Positions 4,165 through 61,572 of a DNA stretch of 64,000 bases are shown piece by piece. The stretch is from NCBI GenBank assembly GCA_902800395.1, contig CADCEC010000001.1, forward strand, positions 62,001 through 126,000. Direction: 5' to 3'. The translations under genes and the position numbers were made by a program. The first letter of the stretch is position 1. The number at the start of each line of letters is the position of its first letter. The notes under the pieces were generated by a model. It was not told the DNA's origin and did not search any database. It saw only the letters and a program-made list of their open reading frames with translations. The DNA is from an uncultured Bacteroidota bacterium. GTDB taxonomy: Bacteria > Bacteroidota > Bacteroidia > Bacteroidales > P3.

Positions 4165-4203
4165 ATTAATATGTTAATGCGTTAATGTATTAATGTGTTA
4201 GTT
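4165..4203. repeat. Short tandem repeat, GTTAATG type
   Basis: Four imperfect 8-9 nt copies of GTTAATG(C/T) fill most of the 50-nt gap between the LRR lipoprotein and the HAD gene. The same unit recurs at 7177-7213 and a relative occurs at 6209-6239. Confidence 0.8.
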
Positions 4204-4208
4204 ATTAT

Positions 4209-4796
4209 ATGAAGAATATTATTTTCGATTTCGGCAATGTGTTGGTGCAGTGGCATCCGGAGCATGTGTATGGTGAGTATTTCGGTGACGAGGCCAAGGC
4301 GTGGTGGTTTCTGCGGCATGTGGCCGACATGGACTTCCGGCAGCGCATCGACGCCGGCGAGAGTTTCGACGGATGTATCCGTGAGAAGCAGGCGCAATAT
4401 CCCGAATATGAGCAGGCTATTGAACTTTACCGTTCGAAGTGGCGCGAGATGCTGACGGATGAGGTGCCGGGGATGCGGGAGGTGATAGTTGAACTAAGAG
4501 GTAAGAACTACGAGCTATATGGACTTACTAATTGGAGCATGGAGACGTTTCCTGAGGCGAGAGTGCATTTCGGTATCCTGCAGATGATTGACCGTTATGT
4601 TGTGAGCGGCGCCGAGGGATATGTGAAGCCCGACCCGAGACTGTTCCAGGTGCTCTTGGGCCGCTATGGGTTGCGCGCCGAAGAGTGCATCTTCATCGAT
4701 GACAACCCCGACAACGTGGCCGCAGCCCGAAACTTGGGCATGCGTGGCATCGTCTTCACCAATGCAGAATCATTACGAAAAGAACTTGCTATATGA
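4209..4796 (+). CDS. HAD-superfamily phosphatase, YihX-like
   Basis: A 195-residue cytosolic haloacid-dehalogenase hydrolase. Motif I is DFGN at 7-10 (the second Asp of DxD is replaced by Asn, as in the YihX/epoxide-hydrolase N-domain branch). Motif II is LTNWS at 106-110, motif III is VKPDP at 139-143 and motif IV is FIDDNPDN at 162-169. The alpha-helical cap lies between I and II. YihX dephosphorylates alpha-D-glucose 1-phosphate, but substrates in this branch are broad and cannot be read from sequence. The stop overlaps the next start by ATGA, indicating coupling with the barrel gene. Confidence 0.88.
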   Translation: MKNIIFDFGNVLVQWHPEHVYGEYFGDEAKAWWFLRHVADMDFRQRIDAGESFDGCIREKQAQYPEYEQAIELYRSKWREMLTDEVPGMREVIVELRGKNYELYGLTNWSMETFPEARVHFGILQMIDRYVVSGAEGYVKPDPRLFQVLLGRYGLRAEECIFIDDNPDNVAAARNLGMRGIVFTNAESLRKELAI

Positions 4797-5413
4797 AAAA
4801 GACATTACTGTTACTCCTGCTTTTTACCTTTCACTTTTCACCTTTCACCTGTCGGGCGCAGGGGCGTTTTGATGCTACGGCATTTGCTGGCTTGAACATG
4901 AGTCAGATTGACGGTGACGGTGCGGGAAGCTACAACCACATGGGGCTACGTGCGGGCGTGGGTACCAGTTTTACGTTGGGAAACGATTTGAAGTCGCCGT
5001 GGCGCATGGTGGTGGAATTGGCTTTTAGCAATAAGGGTTCTCATATCGATGCTTACGACCGTAATCTGTCAGCCAGTTATATTGAACTGCCTGTGATGAT
5101 GTCGTACAACTTGTTGGAGGGTCGTTTACGTTTGGCTGCTGGCGTGGCTCCCGCCATCCTTGTGGATTCCAAAGTGACCAATTATGGTGCTGAAGACCTG
5201 CCTTCACAGGAAAACTTCACCACATTCGATTGGCTTCCGCTGACTGCTAGTATTCGCTACCGCTTTCTTGACCATCTCGGTTTTGAGGTGCGTTATCAAA
5301 ATTCCTTCCTTAGCATCACCAAGGAGAACGGCAGTGGTACCTATCGCCTTTTCAAAGACAACAAAGGAGCTTTCAGCCGGTTGGTTTCCTTTGCTCTCAC
5401 TTATACTTTCTAG
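4793..5413 (+). CDS. Outer-membrane beta-barrel protein (PorT-like family)
   Basis: The 206-residue protein has a signal peptide ending CRAQ and a mature part of alternating amphipathic strands (FDATAFAGLNMSQI, GLRAGVGTSF, WRMVVELAFSNKG, YIELPVMMSYNL, RLAAGVAPAI), ending in an aromatic residue (LTYTF) as expected for BAM-inserted barrels. Such proteins in Bacteroidetes are small outer-membrane barrels of mostly unknown role. The hydrophobic core of the signal peptide (LFTFHFSPFT) is encoded by a CTTTTCAC/CTTTCAC tandem repeat. The last four bases CTAG are shared with the convergent lpxA stop. Confidence 0.85.
   Translation: MKKTLLLLLLFTFHFSPFTCRAQGRFDATAFAGLNMSQIDGDGAGSYNHMGLRAGVGTSFTLGNDLKSPWRMVVELAFSNKGSHIDAYDRNLSASYIELPVMMSYNLLEGRLRLAAGVAPAILVDSKVTNYGAEDLPSQENFTTFDWLPLTASIRYRFLDHLGFEVRYQNSFLSITKENGSGTYRLFKDNKGAFSRLVSFALTYTF
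4824..4850. repeat. CTTTCAC-type heptamer repeat inside a signal peptide
   Basis: About four degenerate 7-8 nt copies (ACCTTTCACTTTTCACCTTTC) lie in frame in the signal-peptide region of the barrel gene. They belong to the (G)GTGAAAG/GTGGAAA family seen at 8688, 15148, 53871, 55385, 56379, 59411 and 61406. Confidence 0.85.
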
Positions 5414-6198
5414 CTTTTCTTTACCACACTTTTGTAGCCGCTCAGCAGGCCGGTGTTGGCGTTGCCGATGAAGGCGAGGATTTGCTTGCCTTCGTCGGTG
5501 GTGCCGAAATGCTCCTTCACCTGCTCGATGGCGTCGGTGACGTTGAGGCCCTTGACGAAGATGTAGCGGTAGATGTCGCTGATGCGGTTGATGCTCTCCT
5601 GGGTGAATCCGCGGCGCTGGAGGCCGAGGGTGTTCACGCCGCAGTACTGGATGGGGTAGCGGGCAGCTTTGATGAAAGGAGGCACGTCCTTGTCGATGAG
5701 GGCACCCCCCTGGGTGATGACGTGGGAGCCGATATGGATGAACTGTAGGCAGGCAGTCTTGCCGCCGAGGATGACATAGTCGCCCATGATGATGTGGCCG
5801 GCGAGGGTGGCGTTATTGGCAAGTACGCAGTTGTCGCCTACGACACAGTCGTGGGCCACATGGACGTAAGCCATGAGGAGGTTGCCGTTGCCGATGACGG
5901 TCTTGCCGCTGGCGGCGGTGCCACGGTTAATGGTGCAGCATTCGCGGATGGTGTTGTCGTCGCCAATCTCGACGGTGGTGTATTCGCCAGCGAACTTGAG
6001 ATCCTGGGGCACGGCAGCGATGACAGCACCGGGGAAGATGCGGCAGTTCTTGCCGATGCGGGCACCGGGGAAGATGGTCACGTTGGGGCCTATCCAGGTG
6101 CCGTCGCCTATTTCAACATCTTCGCAGATAGTGGTAAAGTTCGAGATTTTGACGTTTTGGCCAATCTTGGCGTCGGGGTGTAAGTCGTAAAGGGTCAT
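5410..6198 (-). CDS. lpxA: Acyl-[ACP]:UDP-GlcNAc O-acyltransferase (lipid A step 1)
   Basis: The protein has 262 residues, the same length as E. coli LpxA. The N-terminal two thirds is a left-handed beta-helix of hexapeptide repeats (IGDGTWIGPNVTIFPGARIG and onwards). The catalytic region VHVAHDC includes His116, matching E. coli His125. The C-terminal helical part starts at about GVNTLGLQRRGFTQESI. It acylates UDP-GlcNAc in the cytosol at the start of lipid A synthesis, just before LpxC. The ATG at 6198 gives the normal start MTLYDLHPDAKIG; in-frame codons further upstream run into lpxC and are not used. It is cotranscribed behind lpxC. Confidence 0.96.
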   Translation of the reverse strand: MTLYDLHPDAKIGQNVKISNFTTICEDVEIGDGTWIGPNVTIFPGARIGKNCRIFPGAVIAAVPQDLKFAGEYTTVEIGDDNTIRECCTINRGTAASGKTVIGNGNLLMAYVHVAHDCVVGDNCVLANNATLAGHIIMGDYVILGGKTACLQFIHIGSHVITQGGALIDKDVPPFIKAARYPIQYCGVNTLGLQRRGFTQESINRISDIYRYIFVKGLNVTDAIEQVKEHFGTTDEGKQILAFIGNANTGLLSGYKSVVKKS

Positions 6199-6208
6199 TA
6201 TTGAAATT

Positions 6209-6239
6209 GCGTTATTGCGTTGATTCGTTATTGTGTTAG
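6209..6239. repeat. Short tandem repeat between lpxC and lpxA
   Basis: Copies of (G)CGTTATT/CGTTGATT with 7-9 nt period occupy nearly all of the 43-nt gap between lpxC and lpxA. In most Bacteroidetes the FabZ part of an LpxC-FabZ fusion lies at this position. Confidence 0.75.
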
Positions 6240-7176: not shown

Positions 7177-7213
7177 GTGAATGCGTTAATGTGTGAATGC
7201 GTTAATGTGTTAG
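7177..7213. repeat. Short tandem repeat before lpxC
   Basis: Two copies of a 16-nt unit made of GTGAATGC and GTTAAT(GT), plus a partial third, fill the gap between the LysM gene and lpxC. It is nearly the same unit as at 4165-4203. Confidence 0.8.
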
Positions 7214-8790
7214 TGGGTAGTGGCGGGGACGAAACGAAGGGACTCCATGCGGTAGAGTTGTGGTTGGTCGTTTTCTAGTCCGGCCTGACGACGGCTGAGG
7301 TGAAGGGGGTGGATGAGATTGGTGAGTGTCACGCCAGGTTCGAACCAGAACTTACTGTTGCGAAGGGAGAGTCCATAGACGATATAGGTGGTTAGGTCAT
7401 AGGCTGTGGCAGCCAATGCTGAGGTGGGTTCGGAACCGAAACGGTTGCGAAAGTTAGTGAGAAAATCGATATGCACGCTGTTCCCCATATCCCAATTAGA
7501 GGTGAATGTGTGGTAGTTGAGCAGTTGCAGTTGTGCGAAGTCGATATCGGAAAAGTCGCGGGTCCAGTCGGAGAGAGTGTACAACGTAGGAGAATTGCTC
7601 TTGATGGCAGCAAGACGGTTGAGAAGATTGCTAACGTAGACGCGCATCTGGTCGGCTTGTTGGTCGTAGATGCTTAGCACATGGCAGTTGGGAGAGGCTT
7701 TTAGGGTGGAAGTGAGCTTGTTGCTCTGACTCCAGTTGAAGAGTGTGTGTTTGATGTCGCCGCGTTCAGAAAGCTGACGTTTGATTTCATTCAGGAGAGG
7801 TTTCTCACCGCTGCCGCCATGGATGATGAAAAGGTGTCCGTCAGGTCGTTCGGCTTTCATGTTGTCGAGCATGGTCTTTATCTGACTCTCTACAGAAGGT
7901 TGGATTTTAACCATGTAAGAATTGTCAGCGCAGATTTCACTGCGTGTGGACATGGGGTTGACGATATAGACTCCGGCTTGGCGTGACAGGTCAGCTGCTT
8001 TTGTGAAGGCATCTCGGAAAAGGAGTGCTACCACGACATCAGACTGGGCCACGTTGTGAGACTGAAATACTTTCTCCACGCCCTGTGCACTATTGTCGGG
8101 GACATCCACCACGTTGAGTTCCACACGGGCGGTGGTTGTCGTTGAAGACAGCTGCTCGAGAGCCATAAGCATGCCCTCATAGAATTCAATGAATTCAAAC
8201 TGGCGGTAGCTTTTCTTTCCACGTTGTTCGATGTCGAACTTTGTGGTTGAAATATCATCTATCTCGTTTAGGTGCAGCGGCATCAGTAAAGAGATGCGGA
8301 TGACATCACCCACGGACCGAACGGAGGGAGCCGGAGTAGTGGAAGATGAGACTTCTTTTGTGGTAGAGGGAGTCTGCTGACTGTCGTTCTTCTTGTCGTT
8401 TTTCTTTTCAGTTTGTTTTTTTGCAGATTCCTGTTTGTCTGCATCCATCTTTTCATCGGAGGATGAGAATTGGCCGCGGAAGGGAAGCCACACGGTGTCG
8501 CCGGCATGCAGGAAATGGATGTCGACGTGGGTGACGGCATCATAGCTATTTACCTTATAGGCCTTAGCGATAGAGTAAACGGTTTGGCCTGTCTCCACGA
8601 TGTGGACGTAGTATTTGCGCCCGTTCATCACCTGAGTCTCGTGGCTTACTTTGACAGGTGTCGTGCCTGGGGCCTGCGCTTTTAGTGAGTGGAAAGTGGA
8701 AAGCGGAAAATGGAAAGCGATGCTGACGCAAATCAACAGTATCACTTTCTCTGCTCGTCCACTGAATACATTAAATACTCTTTTTTTCAT
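7210..8790 (-). CDS. Secreted LysM protein with a type 1 periplasmic-binding fold
   Basis: The 526-residue protein starts with a signal peptide (about 1-39, ending SLKAQ). One LysM domain follows at about 58-103 (YYVHIVETGQTVYSIAKAY ... LHAGDTVWLPF), then a low-complexity Ser/Thr/Lys linker (about 105-165). A C-terminal domain of about 350 residues (RISLLMPLHLNEID ... FYEGMLMALEQL ... VVVALLFRDAFTKAADLSRQ) looks like LppC/LivJ-type binding proteins. LysM implies attachment to peptidoglycan; the binding domain could sense wall precursors or small ligands. Part of the signal peptide ([10 protein letters not shown]) is encoded by the GTGGAAA tandem repeat. It lies between guaA and lpxC in one direction. 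Confidence 0.8.
   Translation of the reverse strand: MKKRVFNVFSGRAEKVILLICVSIAFHFPLSTFHSLKAQAPGTTPVKVSHETQVMNGRKYYVHIVETGQTVYSIAKAYKVNSYDAVTHVDIHFLHAGDTVWLPFRGQFSSSDEKMDADKQESAKKQTEKKNDKKNDSQQTPSTTKEVSSSTTPAPSVRSVGDVIRISLLMPLHLNEIDDISTTKFDIEQRGKKSYRQFEFIEFYEGMLMALEQLSSTTTTARVELNVVDVPDNSAQGVEKVFQSHNVAQSDVVVALLFRDAFTKAADLSRQAGVYIVNPMSTRSEICADNSYMVKIQPSVESQIKTMLDNMKAERPDGHLFIIHGGSGEKPLLNEIKRQLSERGDIKHTLFNWSQSNKLTSTLKASPNCHVLSIYDQQADQMRVYVSNLLNRLAAIKSNSPTLYTLSDWTRDFSDIDFAQLQLLNYHTFTSNWDMGNSVHIDFLTNFRNRFGSEPTSALAATAYDLTTYIVYGLSLRNSKFWFEPGVTLTNLIHPLHLSRRQAGLENDQPQLYRMESLRFVPATTH
8688..8719. repeat. GTGGAAA heptamer repeat inside a signal peptide
   Basis: On the plus strand GTGGAAA, GTGGAAA, GCGGAAA, ATGGAAA in a row; on the coding minus strand this reads FHFPLSTFH within the signal peptide of the LysM gene. 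Confidence 0.9.
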
Positions 8791-8793
8791 AAT

Positions 8794-8825
8794 CTTTCCT
8801 CTTTACACTTTCATTTTTCCACTTG
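8794..8825. repeat. Degenerate TTTCCAC-type repeat between guaA and the LysM gene
   Basis: CTTTCCTCTTTACACTTTC and TTTTTCCACTT fill the 39-nt gap. This is a weaker copy of the same heptamer family. Confidence 0.55.
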
Positions 8826-8829
8826 GGAT

Positions 8830-10356
8830 TTATTCCCATTCTATGGTTGCGGGGGGTTTGGAACTGATGTCGTAGCAGACGCGGTTCACACCCTTGACGC
8901 GGTTGATAATCTCGTTGGAGATACGGGCCATGAAGTCGTAGGGGAGATGGCTCCAGTCGGCTGTCATGCCGTCGACGCTCTCCACGGCACGCAGTGCCAC
9001 TACGCTCTCGTAGGTGCGTTCGTCACCCATCACGCCCACGCTCTGCACGGGTAGCAGCATGGCACCTGCCTGCCAGACTTTGTCGTAGAGCCCGGCATCG
9101 CGGAGGCCTTGGATAAAGATGTGGTCTACTTCTTGGAGGATGTGTACCTTCTCGGGGGTGACATCGCTGAGGATTCGAATGGCGAGGCCTGGACCAGGGA
9201 AGGGATGGCGTCCGATGAGCTCATCCTTAATGCCCAGCTGGCGGCCCACGCCGCGGACCTCGTCCTTGAAGAGGCTTCGGAGAGGTTCCACAAGTTTCAA
9301 CTTCATATAGTCGGGCAGACCTCCCACGTTGTGGTGACTCTTGATGGTCTGGCTGGGACCCTTGACGCTGGAACTCTCAATAACGTCGGGATAGATAGTG
9401 CCTTGTCCGAGCCATTTGGCGTCGGTGATGAGTTTGGCTTCGGCATCGAAGACATCGATGAAGGTTTTGCCAATGGCCTTGCGTTTCTTCTCAGGATCTT
9501 TCACCCCAGCTAATACATCATAAAAGCGTTGCTTAGCGTCGACACCTTTCACGTTGAGGCCCATGTCCTTGTAACTCTCGAGCACATTTTCGAACTCGTT
9601 CTTGCGGAGCAGGCCGTTGTCAACGAAAATGCAGTGGAGTTGATGGCCGATGGCGCGGTTGAGCAATACGGCAGCCACAGTGGAGTCGACACCGCCGCTG
9701 AGGCCCAGTACCACTTTGTCGTCGCCCACTTTCTCGCGTAACTCTTTTACGGTTGTCTCAATGAAACTCTCGGGAGTCCACGACTGCTGACAGCCGCAGA
9801 TGTCGACAACGAAGTTATGCAGCAGGGTGTTGCCGTCCACGGAGTGGTGCACTTCGGGATGGAACTGGATGGCGTAGGTCTCTTCGCCATCTATTTTATA
9901 GCCAGCGAACTTGACGTTTTCTGTCGAGCAGATGACTTTATAGTTGTCGGGGAGAATTTCGATGGTGTCGCCATGGCTCATCCATACTTGGCTGCCCATG
10001 GGGATGCCTTTCATCAGGGGACTGTTGCTGTCGATATAGTTAAGATTGGCGCGTCCGTACTCGCGAATTTTACTTTGCTGCACACGTCCACCGCCCCATT
10101 TGGCCAGATATTGGGCACCATAACAGACGGCTAAGAGAGGAAGTTTGCCCTTAATATTCGACATGTCGGGCACGGGAGCATCTGGGGCGTTGCAGCTGAA
10201 CGGACTGCCGGAGAAGACCACACCTTTTACGTCGCTGCCAAGGGTGGGAATCTTGTTAAAAGGGTGTATCTCGCAGTAAACATGCTGCTCCCTAATCTTG
10301 CGGGCAATGAGTTGAGTGTATTGAGAGCCAAAGTCTAATATGATAATGGTGTCCAT
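8830..10356 (-). CDS. guaA: GMP synthase (glutamine-hydrolysing)
   Basis: A 508-residue cytosolic enzyme that makes GMP from XMP, ATP and glutamine. The N-terminal class I glutamine amidotransferase has nucleophile Cys78 (AVCYGAQ) and the His166/Glu168 pair (FHPEVHH). The ATP-pyrophosphatase PP-loop SGGVDST is at 220-226. The C-terminal dimerisation domain ends in the family signature KPPATIEWE. The ATG at 10356 gives the usual [13 protein letters not shown] start and lies 22 nt after an ideal promoter. Confidence 0.97.
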
Positions 10357-10378
10357 ATATATGTTATATTTAAAAATG

Positions 10379-10409
10379 CAAAAATACTAAAAATGATTGG
10401 AATGGCAAA
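10379..10409 (-). promoter_or_regulatory. Full promoter for guaA (TTTG, 19 nt, TATTTTTG)
   Basis: Minus-strand TTTG at 10406-10409 and TATTTTTG at 10379-10386 are spaced by 19 nt. The -33 box is extended as TTTTGCCA, as in the two tRNA promoters. Confidence 0.82.
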
Positions 10410-10415
10410 ATTTTT

Positions 10416-10443
10416 TTTGAATAAATTTTTTTTCGTATCTTTG
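10416..10443 (+). promoter_or_regulatory. Promoter of the M16 peptidase operon
   Basis: A -7 box TATCTTTG at 10436-10443, followed by C, lies 14 nt before the start ATG at 10458. The nearest TTTG (10416-10419) has only a 16-nt spacer, so the -33 assignment is uncertain. It is divergent from guaA. Confidence 0.6.
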
Positions 10444-10457
10444 CATTTTGTTTTGAA

Positions 10458-11720
10458 ATGATTGATTGGAGAAAATATATATTAGCCAATGGATTGACAG
10501 TGCTGACGCATGAGGCGTGGGATACGCCTTTGACGACAGTGAATGTGCTATATAATGTGGGGGCACGGGACGAAGATCCGGGTTGCACGGGTTTTGCGCA
10601 TCTGTTTGAGCATCTGATGTTTGGCGGTACTGAGCGAGTGCCCGATTATGATGCTGTGGTGAGTTCGTTGGGAGGAGAGAATAATGCTTTTACAAACAAT
10701 GACATCACCAACTATTATGTAACAGTTCCTGTTGGCGGATTGCAGACAGCGCTGGAACTGGAGGCGGACCGGATGGAAGGGTTGAATCTGACGCAGAAAG
10801 TTTTAGAGGTGCAACAGAAAGTGGTGAAGGAGGAATATAACCAGCGGTATATGAATCGTCCGTATGGCGATATGTGGTTGTTGTTGAGATCGCTATGTTA
10901 TCAGGTTAGTCCTTATCGCTGGGCGACCATTGGCGCTGATATCCGGCATGTAGCGGAGGCTACACTGGAGGATGTGCAGCAGTTCCATGAGAAATTTTAC
11001 CGTCCTGACAATGCAATAGTTGCCATCGCAGCCCCGTTGAAGCATGAAGAGATGGTTGGGATGGCAGAACGTGCTTTTGGCACGCTTCTTCTCCCTCGCA
11101 AAAGAGTGGCAGAGTCTAGATGTTTTGCCCGAGAGCGGGAATATCCGCAGGAACCTTTGCAGATTACATCGCGGCGATTAGAAGTGATACGTGAAGTGCC
11201 ATCAGACGCTGTATACATGGCATGGCCGATGTGTGATAGGTATGATTCTGATTTCCAAGCTTGCGACTTGATAAGTGATATTCTAGGCACGGGCAACTCG
11301 AGCCGTTTGTATAGGGGAATGGTGAGTGAAGGACGTCTGGTGTCTGAGGCCGACGCCTGCATCACGGGTGATGTGGGACAAGGTCTGCTGATGGTGAGCG
11401 CTAAAGTGCGAGAAGGAGAGAGTTTTGAGGATGTGATAGATACGATAAGGAAAGAGACTCGTCGATTGACAGAAGAGACTGTCGACCCTTACGAACTGGA
11501 AAAGGTGGCAAATAGGTATGAGAGTACGTTTGTATTCTCGCAGTACAAAGCCTCGGACCGAGCAACGGGATTGTGCTACTACACATGGCTTGGCGATACC
11601 TCGTTGGTGAATAGGGAACCTGAGAGATATCGCCAGGTGACACCGGAGGGAGTACAGCGTGCGGCGCGGCGACTCTTTCGTGAGGAAAATGAAAATATAT
11701 TGATTATAAGGAAGAAATGA
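10458..11720 (+). CDS. M16-family zinc metallopeptidase (insulinase/pitrilysin)
   Basis: The 420-residue single-unit M16 protease carries the inverted zinc motif HLFEH at 48-52 (GFAHLFEHLMFGG). The third ligand Glu is in the KVVKEEYNQR segment near 125. The second half is the M16 C-terminal domain (AATLEDVQQFHEKFYRPDNA and YMAWPM ... ILGTGNSSRLYRGMV). No signal peptide is seen, so it acts in the cytosol or is exported by another route. The family degrades peptides. It opens an operon with the ion channel (ATGA overlap at 11717). Confidence 0.93.
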   Translation: MIDWRKYILANGLTVLTHEAWDTPLTTVNVLYNVGARDEDPGCTGFAHLFEHLMFGGTERVPDYDAVVSSLGGENNAFTNNDITNYYVTVPVGGLQTALELEADRMEGLNLTQKVLEVQQKVVKEEYNQRYMNRPYGDMWLLLRSLCYQVSPYRWATIGADIRHVAEATLEDVQQFHEKFYRPDNAIVAIAAPLKHEEMVGMAERAFGTLLLPRKRVAESRCFAREREYPQEPLQITSRRLEVIREVPSDAVYMAWPMCDRYDSDFQACDLISDILGTGNSSRLYRGMVSEGRLVSEADACITGDVGQGLLMVSAKVREGESFEDVIDTIRKETRRLTEETVDPYELEKVANRYESTFVFSQYKASDRATGLCYYTWLGDTSLVNREPERYRQVTPEGVQRAARRLFREENENILIIRKK

Positions 11721-12670
11721 GCATTCGTGAGAGCATAGTGACATTTCTCGGGAAATTGAAAGAGATGGTAACCCATATTAACTATCGTCCTGTGACGAAG
11801 GTGATAGGGGGTGTGATGCACAAAATCGTGCTTGAATGGTTGATGCCGAAGCGCTATCGTAATTTGACGAAAAAAGAGATTTTTGAAATTATCTTCAAGA
11901 GCGACACTCCGGCAGGTAAGAAGTTCGATGTGTGGCTTTTGGTGCTTATCGTGTCCAATATTGTGTTGCTGATGTTCGACAGTGTTTGGGGCGCGACTGA
12001 CACGATGACTTCCGGCGTGCATGAGTCGTTCTCGTTCTGGATTGTGAAGGCTTTGGAGTGGGCTTTTACATTGATTTTTACTTTCGAATACTATCTGAGA
12101 ATCTATTGCTTGAAGCACCCAATGAAGTATGTGCTCTCTTTCTGGGGCGTGATAGATTTCCTTTCTATATTTCCCGCCTATTTGAGTCTTTTCGTCCCCA
12201 CGACGCAGGCGTTGACGGTGTTGAGACTGCTGAGGGTGATGCGTATCTTCCGCATCTTCAAGATGAAACGATTCCAGATGGAGGCTTTCCATCTGATGAA
12301 TGCCCTGCGTAACAGTGCCATCAAGATATTGATTTTCATGATGGTGGTGATGGTGGCGGCTGTAATCTTGGGTACCCTCATGTATTCGTTTGAAGCCGAG
12401 GTGAATCCTGCTTTTAAGAGTATCCCCACGGGTATCTATTGGGCTGTGGTGACCATCACTACAGTAGGTTTTGGCGACGTGGTGCCGCTGACGACGCCGG
12501 GGCGCTTTCTTGCTGTGATAGTGATGTTGTTAGGTTACTCCATCATTGCTGTGCCTACAGGTATTGTGGCGGGTGAGACCCTCAAAGAATATAGCCCTAG
12601 AAATCGTCGTCGCCGTCCTGCTCCGGAAGAATTTGACAATGACGAGGAAAATGAGGCAATAAATAGCTAA
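11717..12670 (+). CDS. Voltage-gated-type potassium channel (six membrane segments)
   Basis: A 317-residue integral membrane protein. Membrane helices run from about 72 to 285. The voltage-sensor-like S4 LTVLRLLRVMRIFRIFKMKRF lies at about 166-186 with regularly spaced Arg/Lys. The pore loop carries the K+ selectivity filter TVGFGD at 249-254, then the inner helix S6. The N-terminal cytosolic part (1-70) is basic. Bacterial Kv-type proteins form tetrameric K+ channels. Coupled by ATGA to the M16 gene before it and by TAATG to the dehydrogenase after it. Confidence 0.93.
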   Translation: MSIRESIVTFLGKLKEMVTHINYRPVTKVIGGVMHKIVLEWLMPKRYRNLTKKEIFEIIFKSDTPAGKKFDVWLLVLIVSNIVLLMFDSVWGATDTMTSGVHESFSFWIVKALEWAFTLIFTFEYYLRIYCLKHPMKYVLSFWGVIDFLSIFPAYLSLFVPTTQALTVLRLLRVMRIFRIFKMKRFQMEAFHLMNALRNSAIKILIFMMVVMVAAVILGTLMYSFEAEVNPAFKSIPTGIYWAVVTITTVGFGDVVPLTTPGRFLAVIVMLLGYSIIAVPTGIVAGETLKEYSPRNRRRRPAPEEFDNDEENEAINS

Positions 12671-13611
12671 TGATGAAGAGAGTGCTTATATCCGACCGTA
12701 CCCATGAGGTGCTTCCGCAACGGCTGCGTGAGGCGGGCTTCGAGGTCCGCGTGGAGCCTGACCATGACTATGAGAGTCTGGTACGGGCGGCACAGGGTTG
12801 CGAGGGATTGGTGGTGAGAAGCAAGGTGAATATTGATCGTGCTTTCATTGACAGGGTGCCGTCACTGAAGTGCATCGGTCGCGTGGGTGCCGGCATGGAG
12901 ACCATCGATGTGGACTATGCTGAGGCTCATGGCGTTCGCTGCCTCAATTCGCCCGAGGGCAACCGCGATGCAGTGGGCGAGCATGCCGTGGGACTATTGC
13001 TGGCATTGCTGAACAATATCGCCCGTGCCGACGCCGAGGTGCGACGGGGACTGTGGCAGCGCGAGGCCAACCGTGGCTATGAGTTGGGACCATTGACGGT
13101 GGGCATCATCGGATATGGCAATATGGGACAGGCGTTTGCAAAGAGACTCAGTGGATTCGGTTGCCGGGTGATATACTATGATAAATACCTGGGAGACGCG
13201 GCAGGCCGCGTCTCTACAGAACGGGTCTCTTTGGCGGAGCTGCAGGCTGAGGCCGATGTGGTGAGTTTCCATGTGCCGTTGACGGAGGAGACGCACCATT
13301 ACCTTGATGCGGCGTTCATTGAGGCGATGGCCAAGCCGTTCTACCTTCTCAATACCTCACGCGGCGCCGTGGTGGACACTGAGGCGTTGGTGGCAGGATT
13401 GGAGAGCGGAAAGGTTCGCGGTGCGGCACTGGATGTGCTGGAATATGAGAATATGCAGGCTGATGGGCTGGGCGATGTACCGGAATGCGTACATTATTTG
13501 CAGCGGTCACCACGCACGGTACTCACGCCTCATGTGGCGGGATGGACCGTGGAATCGAAATATAAGCTCGCTGCCGTGCTGGCAGAAAAGATGATAGAGG
13601 TGCTGAAATGA
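12670..13611 (+). CDS. SerA-like D-2-hydroxyacid dehydrogenase
   Basis: A 313-residue NAD-dependent dehydrogenase of the D-isomer 2-hydroxyacid family. The substrate half (1-100) contains RVGAGMETID. The NAD Rossmann motif GYGNMG is at 148-153. The catalytic Arg lies in LLNTSRGAVVDTEAL and the catalytic His in LTPHVAGWTVES near 285. Size and sequence resemble the short form of phosphoglycerate dehydrogenase (serine synthesis), which lacks ACT domains, but glyoxylate-type substrates are possible. The coding sequence contains a small GC-rich palindrome (13193-13214) in a surface loop just after the NAD domain's second strand. Confidence 0.87.
   Translation: MMKRVLISDRTHEVLPQRLREAGFEVRVEPDHDYESLVRAAQGCEGLVVRSKVNIDRAFIDRVPSLKCIGRVGAGMETIDVDYAEAHGVRCLNSPEGNRDAVGEHAVGLLLALLNNIARADAEVRRGLWQREANRGYELGPLTVGIIGYGNMGQAFAKRLSGFGCRVIYYDKYLGDAAGRVSTERVSLAELQAEADVVSFHVPLTEETHHYLDAAFIEAMAKPFYLLNTSRGAVVDTEALVAGLESGKVRGAALDVLEYENMQADGLGDVPECVHYLQRSPRTVLTPHVAGWTVESKYKLAAVLAEKMIEVLK
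13193..13214. repeat. In-frame palindrome inside the dehydrogenase gene
   Basis: GAGACGCGG, loop CAGG, CCGCGTCTC: a perfect 9-bp hairpin read as part of YLGDAAGRVST. It is much more GC-rich and symmetrical than the surrounding codons, as expected of a REP-like insert. Confidence 0.65.
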
Positions 13612-14144
13612 TTATAGTGCAGAATAGTATAGTTTCCGATGATGTGGCCGACTGCCGCTTCTGCTGCGACCTAAGCGTGTGCAAGGGCGCTTGCTGCGTG
13701 GATGGCGACAGTGGGGCACCGCTGATGGAGGAGGAGGTGAGGAAGATTGAGGCAGTGTTGCCCGAGGCGTTGCCGAAGATGACGGAAGAGGGTAGGGCTG
13801 CTGTTGAAACTCATGGAGTTGCAGTGCGTGACAAAGACGGTGACCTTGGCACTACGCTCATCAACGGAGGCGCTTGTGCTTTCATCACCCCTGGTCCCGA
13901 CGGCTGTACTTTCTGTGCTTTGCAGGGGTTATACAAGCCGGTGTCGTGCCACCTCTACCCTATCCGCGTGGAGGATTTCGGTGAGTTTACGGCCGTCAAC
14001 TATCACCAGTGGGACATCTGCCGATGCGCCAAAGGCAAAGGAGAGCCGCTGTATGTCTACCTGAAAGAACCACTCATCCGCCGCTTCGGACAGGAGTGGT
14101 ATGACGAATTGTTGGAGCAAATAGAACTGAGAAACAATGGATAA
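13608..14144 (+). CDS. DUF3109 cysteine-rich protein
   Basis: A 178-residue protein of the DUF3109 family common in Bacteroidetes. It is rich in Cys, with clusters CRFCC, CKGACC, CAF, CTFCALQ, CHLYP and CRCAKG that resemble the YkgJ-type zinc or Fe-S binding fold. The reaction is unknown. It overlaps the dehydrogenase by ATGA and its end overlaps the start of lspA by 8 nt, so it is in the same operon. Placement beside lspA is frequent in Bacteroidetes as far as I recall. Confidence 0.88.
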   Translation: MIIVQNSIVSDDVADCRFCCDLSVCKGACCVDGDSGAPLMEEEVRKIEAVLPEALPKMTEEGRAAVETHGVAVRDKDGDLGTTLINGGACAFITPGPDGCTFCALQGLYKPVSCHLYPIRVEDFGEFTAVNYHQWDICRCAKGKGEPLYVYLKEPLIRRFGQEWYDELLEQIELRNNG

Positions 14145-14790
14145 GAAAAAACGAGCCATCATCTACGCTGTCATAGTGGCAGCCATCATTGTGGTGGACC
14201 AGATTGTGAAGATATTGGTCAAGACCCATATGCACATAGGCGAGGATATCCCGCTTATCGGGGAATGGTGCCGACTGCATTTCATAGAGAACGAGGGTTT
14301 TGCCTTCGGTATGGCTTTTGGTGGTTCCGTCGGAAAGATAGGCTTGACGCTTTTCCGCATCTTTGCCACCGGGGGTATTGCTTGGTTTATCTGGAAACAG
14401 TTAAAGGGGAACGGACGTACTTCACTCATTGCCAGTCTTACGCTTATTTTCGCTGGAGCTATAGGAAATCTGATTGACAGTTGTTTCTATGGGATGATCT
14501 TCAGTGAGAGCTACTATGATGTCGCCACGCTGTTCCCGCCGGAGGGTGGCTATGGTGTGTTCCTGCAGGGTAAGGTGGTGGATATGTTTTATTTCCCGTT
14601 GTTCGACTTCTACTGGCCGGAATGGATTCCGGTGATTGGAGGCAACTATTTCGAGTTCTTCAGTGCTATCTTCAATGTGGCCGATGCCGCTATCACAATT
14701 GGTGTAATTTGGCTGATTATCGAGCTTGCTTTCCTCGCTCCGAAGGCACAAAAGGCTGCTGCGGATGAAAAAAATCGGAATCGGAAGTAG
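14137..14790 (+). CDS. lspA: Lipoprotein signal peptidase (signal peptidase II)
   Basis: A 217-residue inner-membrane aspartic protease that cleaves prolipoproteins at the lipobox Cys. Four membrane helices are visible. The two catalytic Asp are in GAIGNLIDS (Asp114) and FNVADAAI (Asp183). Bacteroidetes LspA is longer than the E. coli enzyme because of an insert between the two motifs (about 118-160, ESYYDVATLFPPEGGYG), also present here. It serves the many lipoproteins of this window. It ends the operon that began at 10458. Confidence 0.95.
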   Translation: MDKKKRAIIYAVIVAAIIVVDQIVKILVKTHMHIGEDIPLIGEWCRLHFIENEGFAFGMAFGGSVGKIGLTLFRIFATGGIAWFIWKQLKGNGRTSLIASLTLIFAGAIGNLIDSCFYGMIFSESYYDVATLFPPEGGYGVFLQGKVVDMFYFPLFDFYWPEWIPVIGGNYFEFFSAIFNVADAAITIGVIWLIIELAFLAPKAQKAAADEKNRNRK

Positions 14791-14841
14791 TTGAAAATTA
14801 ACTGAGAATTGGAGATTTGGAATTATGAATTGAAAAAAAAT

Positions 14842-14872
14842 TTTGCCAGTTTCCAAATTCTTCGTACTTTTG
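14842..14872 (+). promoter_or_regulatory. Full promoter for tRNA-Phe (TTTG, 19 nt, TACTTTTG)
   Basis: TTTG at 14842-14845 and TACTTTTG at 14865-14872, exactly 19 nt apart. The -33 region TTTTGCCAGTTTC is identical over 13 nt to that of the tRNA-Gln promoter. Confidence 0.85.
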
Positions 14873-14890
14873 CATCCGATTTCAAGAGTT

Positions 14891-14963
14891 GGCGTCGTAG
14901 CTCAGTTGGTAGAGCGAAGGACTGAAAATCCTTGCGTCACTGGTTCAAATCCAGTCGATGCCA
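14891..14963 (+). tRNA. tRNA-Phe (anticodon GAA)
   Basis: A 73-nt cloverleaf. The acceptor stem GGCGTCG pairs with CGATGCC (one G-U) and the discriminator is A. The D arm is GCTCAGTTGGTAGAGC, the anticodon loop CTGAAAA (GAA), and the T arm CTGGTTCAAATCCAG. No CCA is encoded. Its own promoter and terminator flank it. Confidence 0.97.
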
Positions 14964-14972
14964 CACCGAAAG

Positions 14973-14997
14973 GGAGACTCAAACGAGTCTCCTTTTT
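14973..14997 (+). terminator. Rho-independent terminator of tRNA-Phe
   Basis: Perfect 8-bp stem GGAGACTC/GAGTCTCC with loop AAAC and five T, ten bases after the tRNA. Confidence 0.93.
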
Positions 14998-15036
14998 GTT
15001 TGTACAATAATTTGTGTTGCGGCGCGTTATTAAGGT

Positions 15037-16468: not shown

Positions 16469-16469
16469 C

Positions 16470-16498
16470 CCATTCAACCCATTCAACCCATTAACCCC
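16470..16498. repeat. Short tandem repeat before the thioesterase gene
   Basis: Three 9-nt copies of AACCCATT(C/A) make up the whole 30-nt gap between the kinase stop and the thioesterase ATG. Confidence 0.9.
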
Positions 16499-16885: not shown

Positions 16886-16960
16886 CGGTCCGAAACAGAC
16901 TATTTTTTTGAGGGGGACGACAATAGCGACAGTTCCTGCGGAGGGCGTCCGGGTCAACCT

Positions 16961-19982: not shown

Positions 19983-20002
19983 ACAAAAAAATACATAATT
20001 AT

Positions 20003-20027
20003 CAATTTTCAATTTTCAATTTTCATT
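20003..20027. repeat. CAATTTT heptamer repeat between divergent promoters
   Basis: Three perfect 7-nt copies of CAATTTT and a partial fourth (CATTTTT), between the uvrA and C1-peptidase promoters. Confidence 0.85.
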
Positions 20028-53505: not shown

Positions 53506-56500
53506 ATGGTAAGAAGAATCTTTGTAGAGAAGAAGGCTCCTTTTGCTGTGAAAGCCAAGGAGTTGATGAATGAAATGAGTGAGTACCTCGGCATCGAGGC
53601 CGAGGAGGTGCGTGTGCTTATCCGCTACGACGTGGAGAACGTCAGCGACGCCACCTTTGCACAGGCCAAGCAGACGGTTTTTTCAGAGCCGCCCGTGGAC
53701 GATATCTACGACGAGGAGTTTCCTCATAAGGCCGACGATTTCTGCTTCACGGTGGAGTATCTCCCTGGCCAGTTCGACCAGCGTGCCGATAGCGCCGAGC
53801 AGTGCGTCAAGTTGCTCAACGATAGCGAGGAACCTATTATCAAGAGTGCCACTACTTATGTAATTTCGGGAGTGGAAAGTGAAAAGTGGAAAGTGGAAAG
53901 CGATTGGCAGGAGGCTGTGGTGAAGCACTGCGTCAACCCCGTGGACAGCCGTGTCACCGACGAGCCCAAGCCCGCCACCCTCGAGGACCATTTCGACGAG
54001 CCCGCCGACGTGATTGTCTTCGACGGCTTCAAGGACATGGTGGAGTCCAAACTGAAAGAGCTCTATGACGGTCTCGGCCTTGCCATGACCTTCGCCGACT
54101 TCAAGCATATCCAGCGCTACTTCCACGACGAGGAGCACCGCGACCCCACGATGACGGAGATTCGCGTACTCGACACCTACTGGAGCGACCACTGCCGCCA
54201 TACTACCTTCGCCACCGAACTGAAGGATGTGAAGTTCGACGACGGATTCTACCGTCCGCTCATCGAGGGCGCCTTCCAGCAGTACCTCGCCGACCATAAG
54301 GAGCAGTACGCTGGCCGCACCGACAAGTTTGTATGCCTGATGGATATCGGCACCCTCGCCGCCAAGCGTCTCAAGAAGGCTGGCATCCTCGACGACCAGG
54401 AACCCAGCGACGAAATCAATGCCTGCTCCATCGTGGTGCCCGTGGTCATCGACGGCAACAAGGAGGAGTGGCTCATCAACTTCAAGAACGAGACCCACAA
54501 CCACCCCACCGAGATTGAGCCTTTCGGCGGTGCCGCCACCTGCCTGGGTGGCTGCATCCGCGACCCACTCTCGGGCCGTACCTACGTCTATCAGGCCATG
54601 CGTGTCACTGGTGCCGCCGACCCCACCAAGCCGCTCAACGAGACCTTGCCCGGCAAGCTGCCGCAGCGCAAGATCGTCACCACCGCCGCCCACGGCTATA
54701 GCAGCTACGGCAACCAGATAGGCCTCGCCACCGGCTTGGTCAACGAGGTGTATCATCCCAACTATGTGGCCAAGCGCATGGAGATTGGCGCCGTCATCGC
54801 CGCTGCCCCGCGCCGTGCCGTGAAGCGTCTCACTTCCGACCCCGGCGACATCATCATCCTGCTGGGCGGCCGCACGGGCCGCGACGGTATCGGTGGTGCC
54901 ACGGGTGCCTCCAAGAGCCACACCACCAAGAGTCTCACCACCTGCGGTGCCGAGGTGCAGAAGGGTAACGCCCCCACTGAGCGCAAGATCCAGCGCCTGT
55001 TCCGCCGTGAGGAGGTCTCCTCCATCATCAAGAAGTGCAACGACTTCGGTGCCGGCGGCGTGAGTGTAGCCATCGGCGAGCTGGCCGACGGTCTGCAGAT
55101 CAATCTTGATAAAGTTCCTAAGAAATATGCTGGTCTCGACGGCACCGAGTTGGCCATCAGCGAGAGCCAGGAGCGTATGGCCGTGGTCGTCGACCCCAAG
55201 GATGTCGACCTCATGCTGAAATATGCCGACGAGGAGAACCTCGAAGCCACCGTTGTGGCTACCGTCACCGAGGAACCCCGCATGGTCATCAACTGGCGTG
55301 GCAAGGAGATTGTCAACCTCAGTCGCCGCTTCATCGACACCAACGGCGCCCACCAGGAGACCACGGTTTCTGTGGCGATGCCACAGAAAGTGGAAAGTGG
55401 AAAGATGAAAGTGGAAAGTGAGAAAGACCTGTGGTTGAAGACCCTCGCCGACCTCAACGTCTGCTCGCAGAAGGGTTTGGTGGAGATGTTCGATAGCTCC
55501 ATTGGTGCCCGCAGCGTCTTCATGCCCTACGGTGGCAAGTACCAGCTGTCGCCCACGCAGGTGATGGCCGCCACGCTGCCGCTGCTCGACGGTCACTGCG
55601 ACCTCGTTACCTTCATGTCCTACGGACTCGACCCCTACCTGATGTCGTGGAGCCCCTTCCACGGCGCTGCCTGGAATATCGTGAATAGTGTGGCCAAGAT
55701 TGCCGCTGCAGGTGGCGATGCTAGCCGTGTGCGTCTCACCTTCCAGGAATATTTCAAGAAACTTGGTAACGACCCCTACCGCTGGGGTGAGCCTTTCGCA
55801 GCCCTCCTCGGTGCCTATCACGCCCAGATGGGCCTCAAACTGCCTGCCATCGGCGGCAAGGACTCCATGTCCGGCACTTTCAACGACATCGACGTGCCAC
55901 CGACGCTCTGCTCCTTCGCCGTAGGTACAGGCGACGTGCACCATGTGGTCAGCACCGAACTCAAGAAGGCCGGCAACAAGCTGATGCTCCTTGATGTCAA
56001 GGAGGACCAGTACGGTATGCCCGTCTATGATGACGTGCAGGCCCAGTATGCCGCTTTGCGTAAAGCCATCATTGCCGGTCAGGTGAAGAGTTCCTTTGTT
56101 GTCGGTTACGGTGGACTCATTGAGGCTGTCAGCAAGATGGCCTTCGGCAACAAGTTGGGTGTGCGCCTTGCTGACGGGAACGACCTCACCGCTCGTCACT
56201 ACGGCAACATCGTCCTCGAGGTGGAGAACGCCGAGGGCATGCCGTTCCGCTGCAAAGAGATTGGCTGCGTCATCGACGAAGCGGTCTTCTATGTCGGCAA
56301 CGAGAAGATTGACCTTGAAGAGGCCCTCGCCGCCTGGCAGGGTACGCTGGAAGGCGTCTTCCCCACTCGCACCGCGCAAGTTGAAAGCGAAAAGTGCAAA
56401 GTGGAAAGCGCTCTTTTCGATGCTCCCGCACCAAAAAAACTTTCAACTTTCAACTTTCAACTTTCAACTTCGGCGAAGCCGAGAGTCTTCATCCCCGCCT

Positions 56501-57273: not shown

Positions 57274-59703
<2,430 letters not shown>

Positions 59704-60708: not shown

Positions 60709-60717
60709 CGATGGATG

Positions 60718-61530
60718 TTAAAGGTTATAGAACAGGCCGATGCAGCCGTAGATGGGATAAAGAGTCTGCTCGACGGTCTTGAAGTCACTATTGAAGATGC
60801 CGGAGAGCCCCCAGTTGAGGTCGGCGGAGAGGCCCACATGGCGGCTGAAGCGCCAGTCGAAGCCCACGCCCAGGCCCCACTGCAGGCTGCGCATCTCATC
60901 GCTGAAGTCGTAGGTGGCCCATTCGCCCTCCTTGTTGCCAATCTCGATGCGGGGACCCGTGGGGTCGCCCTGCCGCAGGTAGCCGTCGGAGGCGATGCCG
61001 CTGAACTCCTTCTTCAGCAGCAGCGAGAAATATGGTCCAATTTTGAAGGTGACACTTGACACCTGAAACCTGAAACTTACCGGTACCGAGAGCATCCACT
61101 GCGTCACCTGCTGAGAGACGTGGCCGGTGAAGAGGCCGCTGATCTGGCTGTTGCCTTTCTTCATCTCCATACTGTAGCTCTTCACGGTGACGTCGGCGTC
61201 CATGCCCTTGTTCTCGAGGTGCAGGCCGGCCGAGAGGCCGAATTTGTCGCCCAGCGGCAGGATGACGTCGCCGCCCACCAGGAAGGAGGGCGTCAGCCGG
61301 AAGGCGTCGATGCTGCGGATGGAGGCCGGCATGGGCAGGGGCGCTGTGCCGCCGATGTTATAGCCCACGCAGACCTTCACATCAAGGCTGTCGGACTGGG
61401 CAGATAAGGTGAAAGGTGAAAGGAGAAAGGTGAAAAGTATGAGGAGACAGTAGACAGGAGGTAGGGAGTTAAGACAATGGCGACGTATTGCACATTTGTC
61501 TTTAACTTCTTTAACAACCATTTTAATCAT
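60718..61530 (-). CDS. Outer-membrane beta-barrel protein
   Basis: The 270-residue protein has an N-terminal signal region with an unusually long basic start (MIKMVVKEVKDKCAIRRHC) before the hydrophobic core YCLLILFTFLLSPFTLSAQ. The mature part is a PorT-like barrel (LTPSFLVGGDVILPLGDKFGLSAGLHLENKG, FKIGPYFSLLLKK, SLQWGLGVGFDWRF, HVGLSADLNWGL) ending GLFYNL. ATG 61530 or 61521 are both possible. Part of the signal core is encoded by a GGTGAAA-type repeat. It precedes the LD-carboxypeptidase. Confidence 0.82.
   Translation of the reverse strand: MIKMVVKEVKDKCAIRRHCLNSLPPVYCLLILFTFLLSPFTLSAQSDSLDVKVCVGYNIGGTAPLPMPASIRSIDAFRLTPSFLVGGDVILPLGDKFGLSAGLHLENKGMDADVTVKSYSMEMKKGNSQISGLFTGHVSQQVTQWMLSVPVSFRFQVSSVTFKIGPYFSLLLKKEFSGIASDGYLRQGDPTGPRIEIGNKEGEWATYDFSDEMRSLQWGLGVGFDWRFSRHVGLSADLNWGLSGIFNSDFKTVEQTLYPIYGCIGLFYNL
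61406..61438. repeat. GGTGAAA heptamer repeat inside a signal peptide
   Basis: AAGGTGAAAGGTGAAAGGAG and AAAGGTGAAAAG: about four 7-nt copies, on the coding strand LFTFLLSPFTL. A variant of the GTGGAAA family, almost the same as at 4824-4850. Confidence 0.88.
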
Positions 61531-61533
61531 AAA

Positions 61534-61572
61534 CTTATTAACTATTATCTATTATCTATTAACTCTTAACTA
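61534..61572. repeat. CTATTAT tandem repeat between the PCMD and barrel genes
   Basis: Copies of (T)TATTAACTATTATC with 7-8 nt period fill the gap and overlap the stop of the PCMD gene. Confidence 0.8.

Follow-up and report, generated by a model that had tools for sequence, protein, structure and literature searches.

What process could strew a stretch of bacterial chromosome with dozens of short tandem repeats? The question is raised by a window of 64,000 nt (the whole stretch of DNA analysed here: GCA_902800395.1, contig CADCEC010000001.1, positions 62,001-126,000, forward strand) from an uncultured Bacteroidota bacterium (Bacteroidales; P3), labelled G000. A preliminary description had listed 29 repeat loci, and 27 of these match a Tandem Repeats Finder (TRF) row with a score of at least 40. 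TRF sees only a 14-bp period at locus 8794 and only a 22-bp period at 16961, locus 33533 scores 33, and at 56379 the strong array starts at 56438, positions 56378-56408 being a weak inverted partner arm. The contention that the repeats exceed chance holds: 35 loci (score >=40, period <=12) stand against a mean of 0.42 and a maximum of 2 in 50 local dinucleotide shuffles, and 20 loci against 0 at a score of at least 50. Units of 2-6 bp are rare in the window, where 5 of 79 TRF rows (score >=30) have periods of 3-6 and exact-match runs of 12 or more at lags 2-6 are absent. A reading as CRISPR arrays was rejected, as the window arrays printed have no constant repeat with unique spacers; their units abut directly. 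Array density is not peculiar to the window: a further 20 stretches of 20 kb, which complete a sample of 464 kb, are similarly loaded, with 205 loci against 0-0.5 per 20 kb of shuffled sequence. The sample holds 215 arrays with 7-11-bp units, which extrapolates to about 1,100 for the genome, and the preliminary description thus understates the extent of the phenomenon.

Are these arrays unrelated to one another, as had been proposed? They are not, because about 20 unit clusters recur in the 464 kb with at least three arrays each (adjacent arms counted separately, 10-bp units left out). Heptamers account for 115-116 arrays and 14 clusters, the largest of 31 arrays; units of 8, 9, 10 and 11 bp also occur. 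By family, the census gives 31 arrays for GAAAGTG, 26 for TAGTTAA, 18 for CTTTAAA and 19 for TCAAGCAA. Most arrays (127 of 215) are 28-37 bp long, and the modal length of 7- and 8-mer arrays is near 32 bp. Part of our best explanation is that the arrays are a genus-wide set, usually 28-37 bp long, drawn from a restricted stock of unit families of 7-11 bp. These families recur at unlinked sites, and the same site holds different families in different species.

Within a family, some positions are fixed and others free. Eight arrays, all within roughly 43 kb of the start of contig 1, share an invariant AATTCGC with two free bases; TAGTTAA units vary mainly at two positions, and between co-oriented genes their arrays lie mostly in the sense direction (16 vs 4). 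These features and the modal length would suit selected recognition sites, bound by nucleoid, regulatory or RNA-processing proteins and divided into dialects that co-evolve with the binder, an explanation that we regard as possible and on the whole doubtful. However, it may be detection that sets the lower edge of the length mode, and similarity clustering itself limits the variation seen within families.

Several window arrays take up gaps between genes. The 8-bp array TTAATGTG (4166-4200) fills most of a 50-bp intergenic gap and is equally long in the congener G002, the 8/16-bp array GTGAATGCGTTAATGT (7177-7212; TRF) fills a 35-bp gap, an 8-bp array (6206-6238; TRF) lies between lpxA and the next gene, and the heptamer AATTAAG (24186-24217; TRF) stands in a gene gap. 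The 7-bp array AATTGAA (416-449; TRF score 54) adjoins a 110-bp block that is common to other loci and promoter-like by eye; TTTCACC (7 bp, 4822-4850; TRF) lies near the start of an ORF (4793-5413) that looks signal-peptide-like by eye, and the heptamer AATTTTC (19997-20030) is at the start of uvrA or just upstream. The family of the 9-bp array AACCCATTC (16467-16497) is also found in coding arrays in PurL of congeners. Elsewhere TRF finds the 8/16-bp array TGATTGTT (25623-25666), the heptamer TTCTTAG (28066-28104), a degenerate heptamer array AACTGTT (29535-29576; score 42) and, back to back, the 9-bp arrays CTATCAGAA and TTCTTTTAG (41142-41188). Near the end of the window, the heptamer arrays AAGGTGA (61406-61447) and TATTAAC (61536-61572) are both similar in RUG156. 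The latter adjoins a PCMD-domain gene, just past which there are ATTTTCA arrays in L023 and L024, AGTTAAG in L030 and TGAAGAA in L029.

One array carries a peculiar signature. The CTTATCTC array (28866-28902) has an irregular 8-8-7-8 register that it shares with 4 other loci in the 464 kb, so that 5 of the 8 arrays matched by the pattern for its family possess it; the same scan found a 7-nt unit in 0 of 7 TCAAGCAA-type arrays. Unit-by-unit growth in place would not repeat such a register, although 8 + 7 = 15 nt also preserves the reading frame in coding copies.

Arrays are not confined to gaps and odd genes. By our own, unbenchmarked gene finder, which misses for example 10458-11720 and 30776-31855, 85 of the 215 arrays (about 40%) are in or mostly in predicted genes, and 64 of 337 predicted genes in the 464 kb carry arrays. 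Annotation and work on metagenome-assembled genomes (MAGs) are affected, because this is about one predicted gene in five. The arrays occupy open frames of PurL, UvrA, RecO, MenG, CoaBC and a PhoB-like regulator, and the peptides they encode include VESGKWKVES, LSTFHFPLST, DLKDLK and PIKPIE. The PhoB-like regulator (best model match 257 bits, below the model cut-off of 270) has two on the plus strand: the heptamer CTTTCCA x5.4 (15148-15185), inside the receiver domain and read as 12 residues, and a 9-bp CTAG array (15399-15449), read as SSSSSLSSSTSLTSLT, between the receiver and the C-terminal part. Also on the plus strand are the 8-bp array ATCAAGCA (32410-32445), which lies in an rRNA methyltransferase of RlmK/L-like type and is some 3 bp shorter in G002; the 8-bp array AACGTATC (49200-49224), which reads NVSTYQRIS inside CoaBC; and the heptamer CACTTTC (59411-59442) inside a glycoside hydrolase 97 gene, where G009 and G002 have non-repeat sequence. 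UvrA holds a 9-bp (DLK)n array on the minus strand (18179-18227). For GAAAGTG arrays (29 coding, 4 intergenic), the number per kb is not higher in gaps than in genes, which counts against a purely neutral spreader. The share of arrays inside genes argues against recognition sites, and so does orientation, the coding GAAAGTG arrays being 14 sense and 15 anti.

At 10 of 11 sites in PurL, UvrA, RecO and MenG more than one repeat family occurs across species, and species pairs differ in family in 291 cases and share it in 124 (for each protein the comparison used the 30 best-matching orthologs within the genus, which are not a random sample). In PurL, all on the plus strand, the site 1 heptamer (53871-53900) is replaced by CTAG 9-mers in G002, G022 and RUG156 and there is no array in G009, while the site 3 heptamer (55386-55427) has 10 families among 18 bearing genomes of 30. 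The UvrA site has CTAG arrays in five other bearers and AATCAGAAT in one. Such swapping at the same place counts against recognition sites. At MenG site 2 the G000 array is 57 nt long, equal to the array-less stretch of G097, in which both array edges, AAGCGGAAAG and GGCTGACGC, are already present; this anchor is a single example, without a statistical test. At MenG site 3 the same base is changed in all unit copies between G000 and G002 and the odd third copy is retained. This is not accounted for by copying alone, and concerted change of that kind would favour recognition sites. No conversion tract is visible between species, because the flanks of arrays common to two species do not exceed the remainder of the gene in similarity.

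Some arrays are the arms of hairpins with recurring cores. In the window, the heptamer array AGTGGAA (8688-8719) is followed by a stretch with GCTGACGC and a weak inverted heptamer array (8794-8824; the feature spans 8688-8824), which scores 13, just below our counting threshold of 14. An 11-bp array x2.9 with an inverted array x2.1 (23083-23139) forms a hairpin with a 2-nt loop between convergent genes, and an 11-bp array x3 with an inverted array x2.2 (29745-29807) lies between divergent genes. PurL site 4 (56378-56470, plus strand) consists of the weak heptamer arm, a 29-nt spacer and the inverted heptamer array AACTTTC; at 16953-17017 TRF finds a 22-bp unit, a hairpin in its own right (GTCAACT..AGTTGAC), repeated three times. 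At the threshold of 14, 25 of 130 intergenic arrays (both arms counted) have an inverted partner nearby, against 7 with a direct one and 6 for a foreign array; there is no such enrichment in genes (3 vs 2 direct among 85 arrays), and most of the 215 arrays scanned in 464 kb have no detected inverted partner. The arms stay complementary while the unit differs between species, which would again be expected of recognition sites.

The enrichment of inverted partners between genes is also what local replication slippage with hairpin-templated strand switching would give, the arrays being made in place, one arm copied onto the other, unusually often after loss of the hairpin nuclease SbcCD. For heptamers in bacteria, slippage tied to the footprint of the polymerase has been put forward (PMC4692102). 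SbcD is above the model cut-off in 8 of 25 genus genomes (G000 counted) and was detected in none of the three genomes with the highest density (G002, G010 and G000); density per 20 kb is 1.4-6.0 in 8 genomes with SbcD and 0-12.0 in 15 without it (Mann-Whitney p=0.056, and p=0.19 in a first, smaller sample, both ignoring phylogeny). The search covered SbcD alone, and MAG incompleteness can mimic its absence. Outside the genus the picture is mixed: of two genomes without an SbcD match, G032 has 0 arrays in 20 kb and G034 four in 5.3 kb. Units of 1-6 bp are rare, and slippage in place does not account for families, registers and cargo that recur at unlinked loci; we consider this origin unlikely.

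The cargo is a covarying, structured element of ~51 nt, located in phase between heptamer units at nine unlinked G000 loci. Its core measures 51 nt in 14 and 50 nt in one of 15 copies (9 from G000, 6 from congeners). The flanking heptamers are of GGAAAGT type in G000, G097 and G047 and of GAAAATT type in G082, G002, G083 and G015; they are degenerate at two of the nine G000 loci. One copy lies inside MenG of G000 and is missing from MenG orthologs, and six other G000 copies are 92-99% identical to it (at most seven candidates scored per genome). The element occurs in more than one reading frame, as judged by eye, and is matched in 37 of 119 congeners (E<=1e-3). Rfam at gathering scores returned two tRNAs and a 5S rRNA only across five sources, and at E<=1 the 14 sub-threshold matches among 20 loci included none at the element.

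Recurrent cores with arrays on both sides, in-frame insertion in genes and the spread of the element among congeners are what one would look for if a transposase had moved miniature transposable elements (of the MITE, REP or Rickettsia-palindrome type) and the arrays were their ends or scars. We think this improbable: most arrays lack an inverted partner, many alleles exchange sequence for an equal length instead of inserting, and target-site duplication independent of the arrays was not noticed in an unsystematic look. The Y1 transposase, the sole transposase type searched (PF01797, E<=1e-3), has no match in the array-bearing congeners G009 and G014. A linked enzyme had been suggested as something to look for, and none was found; G000 has one reverse-transcriptase gene and two Y1-transposase genes.

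How fast, then, do the arrays change, and how widely do they occur? G067 and G016 (99.98% identical over the 40 kb compared) share seven arrays, all of 11-bp units and all identical; no copying event was seen between them, and the array-changing process looks slow. Between G021 and G100 (93.3%), 13 listed arrays comprise 5 identical, 4 different (one by a whole unit) and 4 with weak flanks. These two pairs are what bears here on the rapid copy-number change typical of phase-variable simple sequence repeats. Their coding arrays are 80.8% identical (167 bp; one 89-bp array at 70% lowers the figure) against 93.7% for coding sequence, and their intergenic arrays 95.1% (265 bp), only slightly above the 92.3% of intergenic DNA; both figures count against recognition sites. 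Density within the genus ranges from 0 to 12 arrays per 20 kb, and G198, from another genus of the same family, stands at 2.7 in 15 kb. The expectation that related families would be poorer is borne out by 11 of the 13 stretches taken from the order's other families (0-3.0 arrays of 7-11 bp per 20 kb) and not by G034 (15.1) and G040 (7.9), both 5-kb stretches. The pattern GGAAAGT x3 (<=2 mismatches) is present at all in 11 of 295 order-sample genomes; G000 has 206 matches, and none of the other 294 exceeds 13.

We give a probability of roughly 0.4 to the reading that these are genus-wide dispersed micro-repeats which copy themselves to tolerant sites, overwrite such sites and carry cargo from one to another. 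Ectopic copying would account for their spread: a strand, nascent or single, would pair through short repeat units with another array, extend on that array and return, inserting or overwriting a patch of about 20-40 nt, and a core might ride along as cargo. Selection would keep only those events that leave an open frame in genes (stop-free units, tolerant stretches) or that fall in gaps. Ordinary replication or repair enzymes could do the copying, no dedicated enzyme being established. The claim of above-chance density stands, that of an active process which creates or spreads the repeats draws indirect support from family turnover, the ~51-nt element and the 8-8-7-8 register, and the linked enzyme did not materialise. 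A bolder version, which we doubt while taking it seriously, is a rewriting system: genome-wide, arrays whose species dialect evolves would be copied onto tolerant patches of genes and gaps, repeatedly overwriting stretches of essential proteins with a limited set of families, and would also serve as landing and exchange sites for small structured RNA/DNA elements.

Sister species have different repeats at the same spots, which suggests that these stretches of DNA are rewritten in the course of time. If so, the genus has a process constantly at work by which repeat-encoded peptides take the place of parts of its housekeeping proteins while the genes stay open, and it would offer a natural experiment on the amount of overwriting that an enzyme tolerates. 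The long-standing question of what makes 7-bp repeats so favoured in bacterial genomes, and by what route short repeats reach new sites, would also gain a tractable system.

How do the arrays compare with known systems? REP sequences, which are associated with RAYT transposases, and the uptake sequences of Haemophilus and Neisseria are short motifs dispersed in hundreds, with inverted intergenic pairs; they are not tandem arrays, whereas those described here are, with many motifs per genome. A REP/RAYT system was rejected, as a Y1 transposase is not required: array-bearing G009 and G014 have no PF01797 match, G000 has 2. That natural transformation has accumulated the arrays as uptake or recombination signals seems to us very improbable. 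Density, dispersal, occurrence in genes and inverted pairs would resemble uptake sequences, and G000 has a Competence (ComEC-type) domain, yet so do 10 of 14 control genomes; one genome holds many unrelated motifs, and flank identity around shared arrays is not raised.

The closest kinds are the Xanthomonas/Beggiatoa heptamers and the Rickettsia palindromic elements. For Xanthomonas and Nostoc, the portion of the report used here (PMC4692102) describes dispersed GGGAATC / GGGGA(C/T)T arrays, four units being commonest, with fixed and free positions, neighbouring sites convergent in 70 cases among 186 patterns of one strain, and length and sequence varying between related strains in the same gaps. 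To that extent the dispersed heptamers, the fixed and free positions and the inverted neighbours are alike; however, that portion describes one G-rich quadruplex-type family, about 90% intergenic, whereas here about 20 clusters of 7-11-bp units occur, 85 of 215 arrays are in genes and families are exchanged at the same site. TAACTGA direct repeats, in the excerpted account (PMC4679880), occur in Beggiatoaceae, Cyanobacteria and five Bacteroidetes, are intergenic and often near start codons, and follow strain-specific paths; other heptamers are mixed in for some species, and the main genome of that study has a single dominant heptamer, with related ones rare. In-gene family swapping and hairpin cargo are not described in that excerpt. 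G000 shares with both the many dispersed 7-bp-unit arrays in one genome and lacks the single dominant, mostly intergenic unit. Rickettsia palindromic elements, according to the passages drawn on (PMC10969869), are short (about 150 bp), inserted in frame in unrelated metabolic genes and encode conserved peptides. In-frame insertion into unrelated housekeeping genes is found here too, by the arrays and by the ~51-nt element in MenG (a likeness of kind), whereas the element is shorter, is read by eye in more than one frame and lies between heptamer units in G000. Family swapping at the same site, arrays within genes and multi-family 7-11-bp units set the G000 arrays apart from heptamer repeats as described in those portions of the literature.

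The excess of short tandem repeats that the preliminary description had reported for the window, some thirty unrelated loci ascribed to an active creating or spreading process, is borne out by a repeat search (TRF score of at least 40, period of at most 12), which returned 35 loci there vs 0.42 in shuffled sequence. It also extends beyond the window: 20 further 20-kb stretches of the same genome (G000) hold 205 loci, with periods of 7 (102 loci), 9 (31), 8 (27), 12 (18), 11 (14), 10 (11) and shorter (2), and shuffles of the window and of the further stretches rule out chance or base composition as the source. The 464 kb, window included, contain 215 arrays of 7-11-bp units. Of these, 130 are intergenic; the other 85 lie wholly or mostly in coding sequence and are spread over 64 of the 337 genes predicted by our own script, which missed some genes. 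The genome measures 2.4 Mb in 21 contigs, the window being 62001-126000 of contig 1, and extrapolation to its full length gives about 1,100 arrays. Density is lower in most sampled congeners; in the density survey of other families of the order, the stretch from genome G039, whose GC reads 0.00, was uninformative. Assembly artefact is unlikely because reading frames stay open across the arrays and further assemblies of the genus have such arrays too, and the units stand without spacers, which rules out CRISPR arrays.

The arrays are of rather uniform size. Their length is 28-37 bp in 127 of 215 and exceeds 45 bp in 28, with a mode of about 30-36 bp for 7- and 8-bp units alike, also at a lower threshold; the fall-off at the upper end is real, and the lower edge may partly be a detection effect. 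Several families combine almost invariant unit positions with variable ones, to the extent that clustering by similarity leaves variation visible. Eight 9-mer arrays of the form AATTCGCnn, with an invariant 7-base core, all lie, within the sampled 464 kb, in stretches L002-L004 (contig 1, about 4-43 kb).

Families differ in where they sit. Those with stop codons within the repeat cycle, TAGTTAA and CTTTAAA among them, occur mostly or only between genes, as do all 18 of the 11-bp arrays; 29 of 33 GAAAGTG arrays and 15 of 19 TCAAGCAA arrays, the latter all in sense orientation, are within genes. Gene gaps of at most 90 bp hold 45 arrays, and in many cases the array takes up the whole gap (81 gaps measure 30-90 bp). 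The genes with coding arrays encode central enzymes: in the window, the arrays are found in FGAM synthase PurL (three), UvrA, a PhoB-like regulator, CoaBC and an rRNA methyltransferase, and outside it, by our own reading of translations, in RsmE, CoaX, RecO, MenG, AroE and DnaG. The UvrA array is placed where the G000 protein exceeds a solved UvrA by 7 residues. There is also a second UvrA-like gene (e.g. G000:C4:156515-159301), about 46-47% identical and with one in-frame stop in several species. Coding repeats of other kinds were seen as well: a gene at window positions 26354-28048 carries a low-complexity repeat of 6/12/18-bp period (27455-27571) that seems to be an ordinary coding repeat, not a member of the array families, and positions 8184-15400 of stretch L003 have long degenerate internal coding repeats, perhaps, as a guess, of a surface protein.

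Comparison of orthologous sites points to a turnover of families. In PurL, UvrA, RecO and MenG, each represented by the 30 best-matching genomes of the genus, G000 included, out of 111, 120, 97 and 79, respectively, more than one family was present at 10 of the 11 sites where three or more genomes bear an array, and species pairs over these 11 sites had a family in common in 124 cases and different families in 291. Between VSVxMP and K(D/E)LW, PurL has a site at which 18 bearers carry ten families, of 7- and 9-bp units; here genomes with a PurL identity of about 92% have different arrays, with flanks alignable right up to the array (G007 left out of this flank comparison). At closer range, seven 11-bp arrays are identical between two genomes at 99.98% identity, and of 13 arrays of G021 compared with G100 (93.3% identical), five are identical, four different (one by a whole unit) and four have weak flanks. 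Where two close genomes share an array, it looks stable, and this comparison makes phase-variable slippage less likely. The flanks of shared arrays gave no signal of array-centred transfer between species.

Some arrays enclose other sequence. An element of about 51 nt, CACCCCGAAGGGGAACYGARCACC...GYGARGAA, forms an in-frame insert in MenG that is missing from MenG orthologs; it is present at at least nine loci in G000, and 37 of 119 congeners have a match to it (E<=1e-3). One copy lies at about 8337-8387 of stretch L002, and G000 copies are collected as loci L224-L231. The predicted structure, a CCCCGAAGGGG hairpin and a second helix with tandem G-A, is supported by covariation: 16 cells changed on both sides vs 4.8 in shuffles, a value reached by 0 of 500 shuffles, with 0-2 cells in slid controls, in a sample of 21 sequences that we picked from the matches and from whose alignment the structure was also taken. 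The number of pair types was not above that in shuffles, and an Rfam scan found no known RNA family at the element or the scanned arrays. In G000 the element has heptamer units on both sides (GTGG / core / AAAG), which are degenerate at two of the nine loci. The flanking units are of the GAAAATT type in G082, G002, G083 and G015, and in many other congeners the element has no flanking array. Genome G107 has the core twice in direct tandem (L246).

Inverted pairs of arrays are a further source of enclosed cores. At a partner score of at least 14 with both arms counted, 25 of 130 intergenic arrays are accompanied by an inverted partner no more than 130 bp away, vs 7 by a direct one and 6 when another array, taken at random, served as control; within genes there was no such enrichment (3 inverted, 2 direct and 2 random other, of 85). 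An initial tally of neighbouring arrays, based on strict TRF pairs, had 9 inverted, 5 direct and 22 other cases. The cores recurring between arms, noted by eye with no chance control, include GGCTG(A/C)CGC..GCG(T/G)CAGCC and GACAAATG..CATTGTC. GGCTG(A/C)CGC follows different heptamers in different species; as GGCTG(A/C/T)CGC, likewise chosen by eye and searched for beside arrays without a chance control, its letters are native coding sequence in MenG. A further dispersed hairpin repeat, TGATTCCACTGCCCCGGAGGGGC...GGGAATTCATTCCCTG, has several copies in L002 (15292-15460, 17516-17633 and 18241-18566).

Growth in place, unit by unit, does not explain the recurrence of families at unlinked sites, the 8-8-7-8 register common to five of eight CTTATCTC-type arrays, or the appearance of the 51-nt core at unlinked arrays. 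We propose that whole short patches are copied between arrays, which would account for all three. Site 2 of MenG looks, from its sequence, like such a patch, as a single example with no statistic: the G000 array is exactly as long as the array-less version in genome G097, and the array ends are sequence already in G097 (a repeat match, AAGCGGAAAG, and a recurring-core match, GGCTGACGC). At odds with copying are the lack of a flank signal, concerted base changes in which an odd unit is kept, a density of GAAAGTG that is similar in genes and gaps, and the fact that no copying event was seen between close genomes.

As to the enzymes that might be involved, SbcD had no match in the densest genomes, and the association of SbcCD loss with array density, assessed without G015 (a 4-kb stretch) and G100, is suggestive and not significant (p=0.056; p=0.19 in the first sample). 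A Y1 transposase is not required as mover of the arrays. G000 has a single reverse transcriptase gene (RVT_1, G000:C1:142710-143267, locus L144), which looks retron-like from its motifs. Stretch L005, covering part of this region, has a lower GC of 0.465. A comparison of one heptamer array with phage sequences gave weak matches (best E 0.1).

Among the matches listed from open-licence literature, none described arrays that lie within genes, swap families and have hairpin cores, and there was no description of such arrays in Bacteroidales. Related repeats are on record. A tandem-repeat survey reports high density in Bacteroidota, genes included, and notes that certain repeats of 6-9 bp are enriched in prokaryotic phyla (PMC12699852), and TAACTGA heptamers are known from Beggiatoaceae and five Bacteroidetes (PMC4679880). 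The heptamer arrays of Xanthomonas, in which four is the commonest number of units, have free positions and form convergent pairs (PMC4692102); heptamer units and free positions are likewise features of the arrays described here. The Rickettsia palindromic elements are short elements inserted in frame within genes (PMC10969869), and in-frame insertion in genes is also seen in G000.
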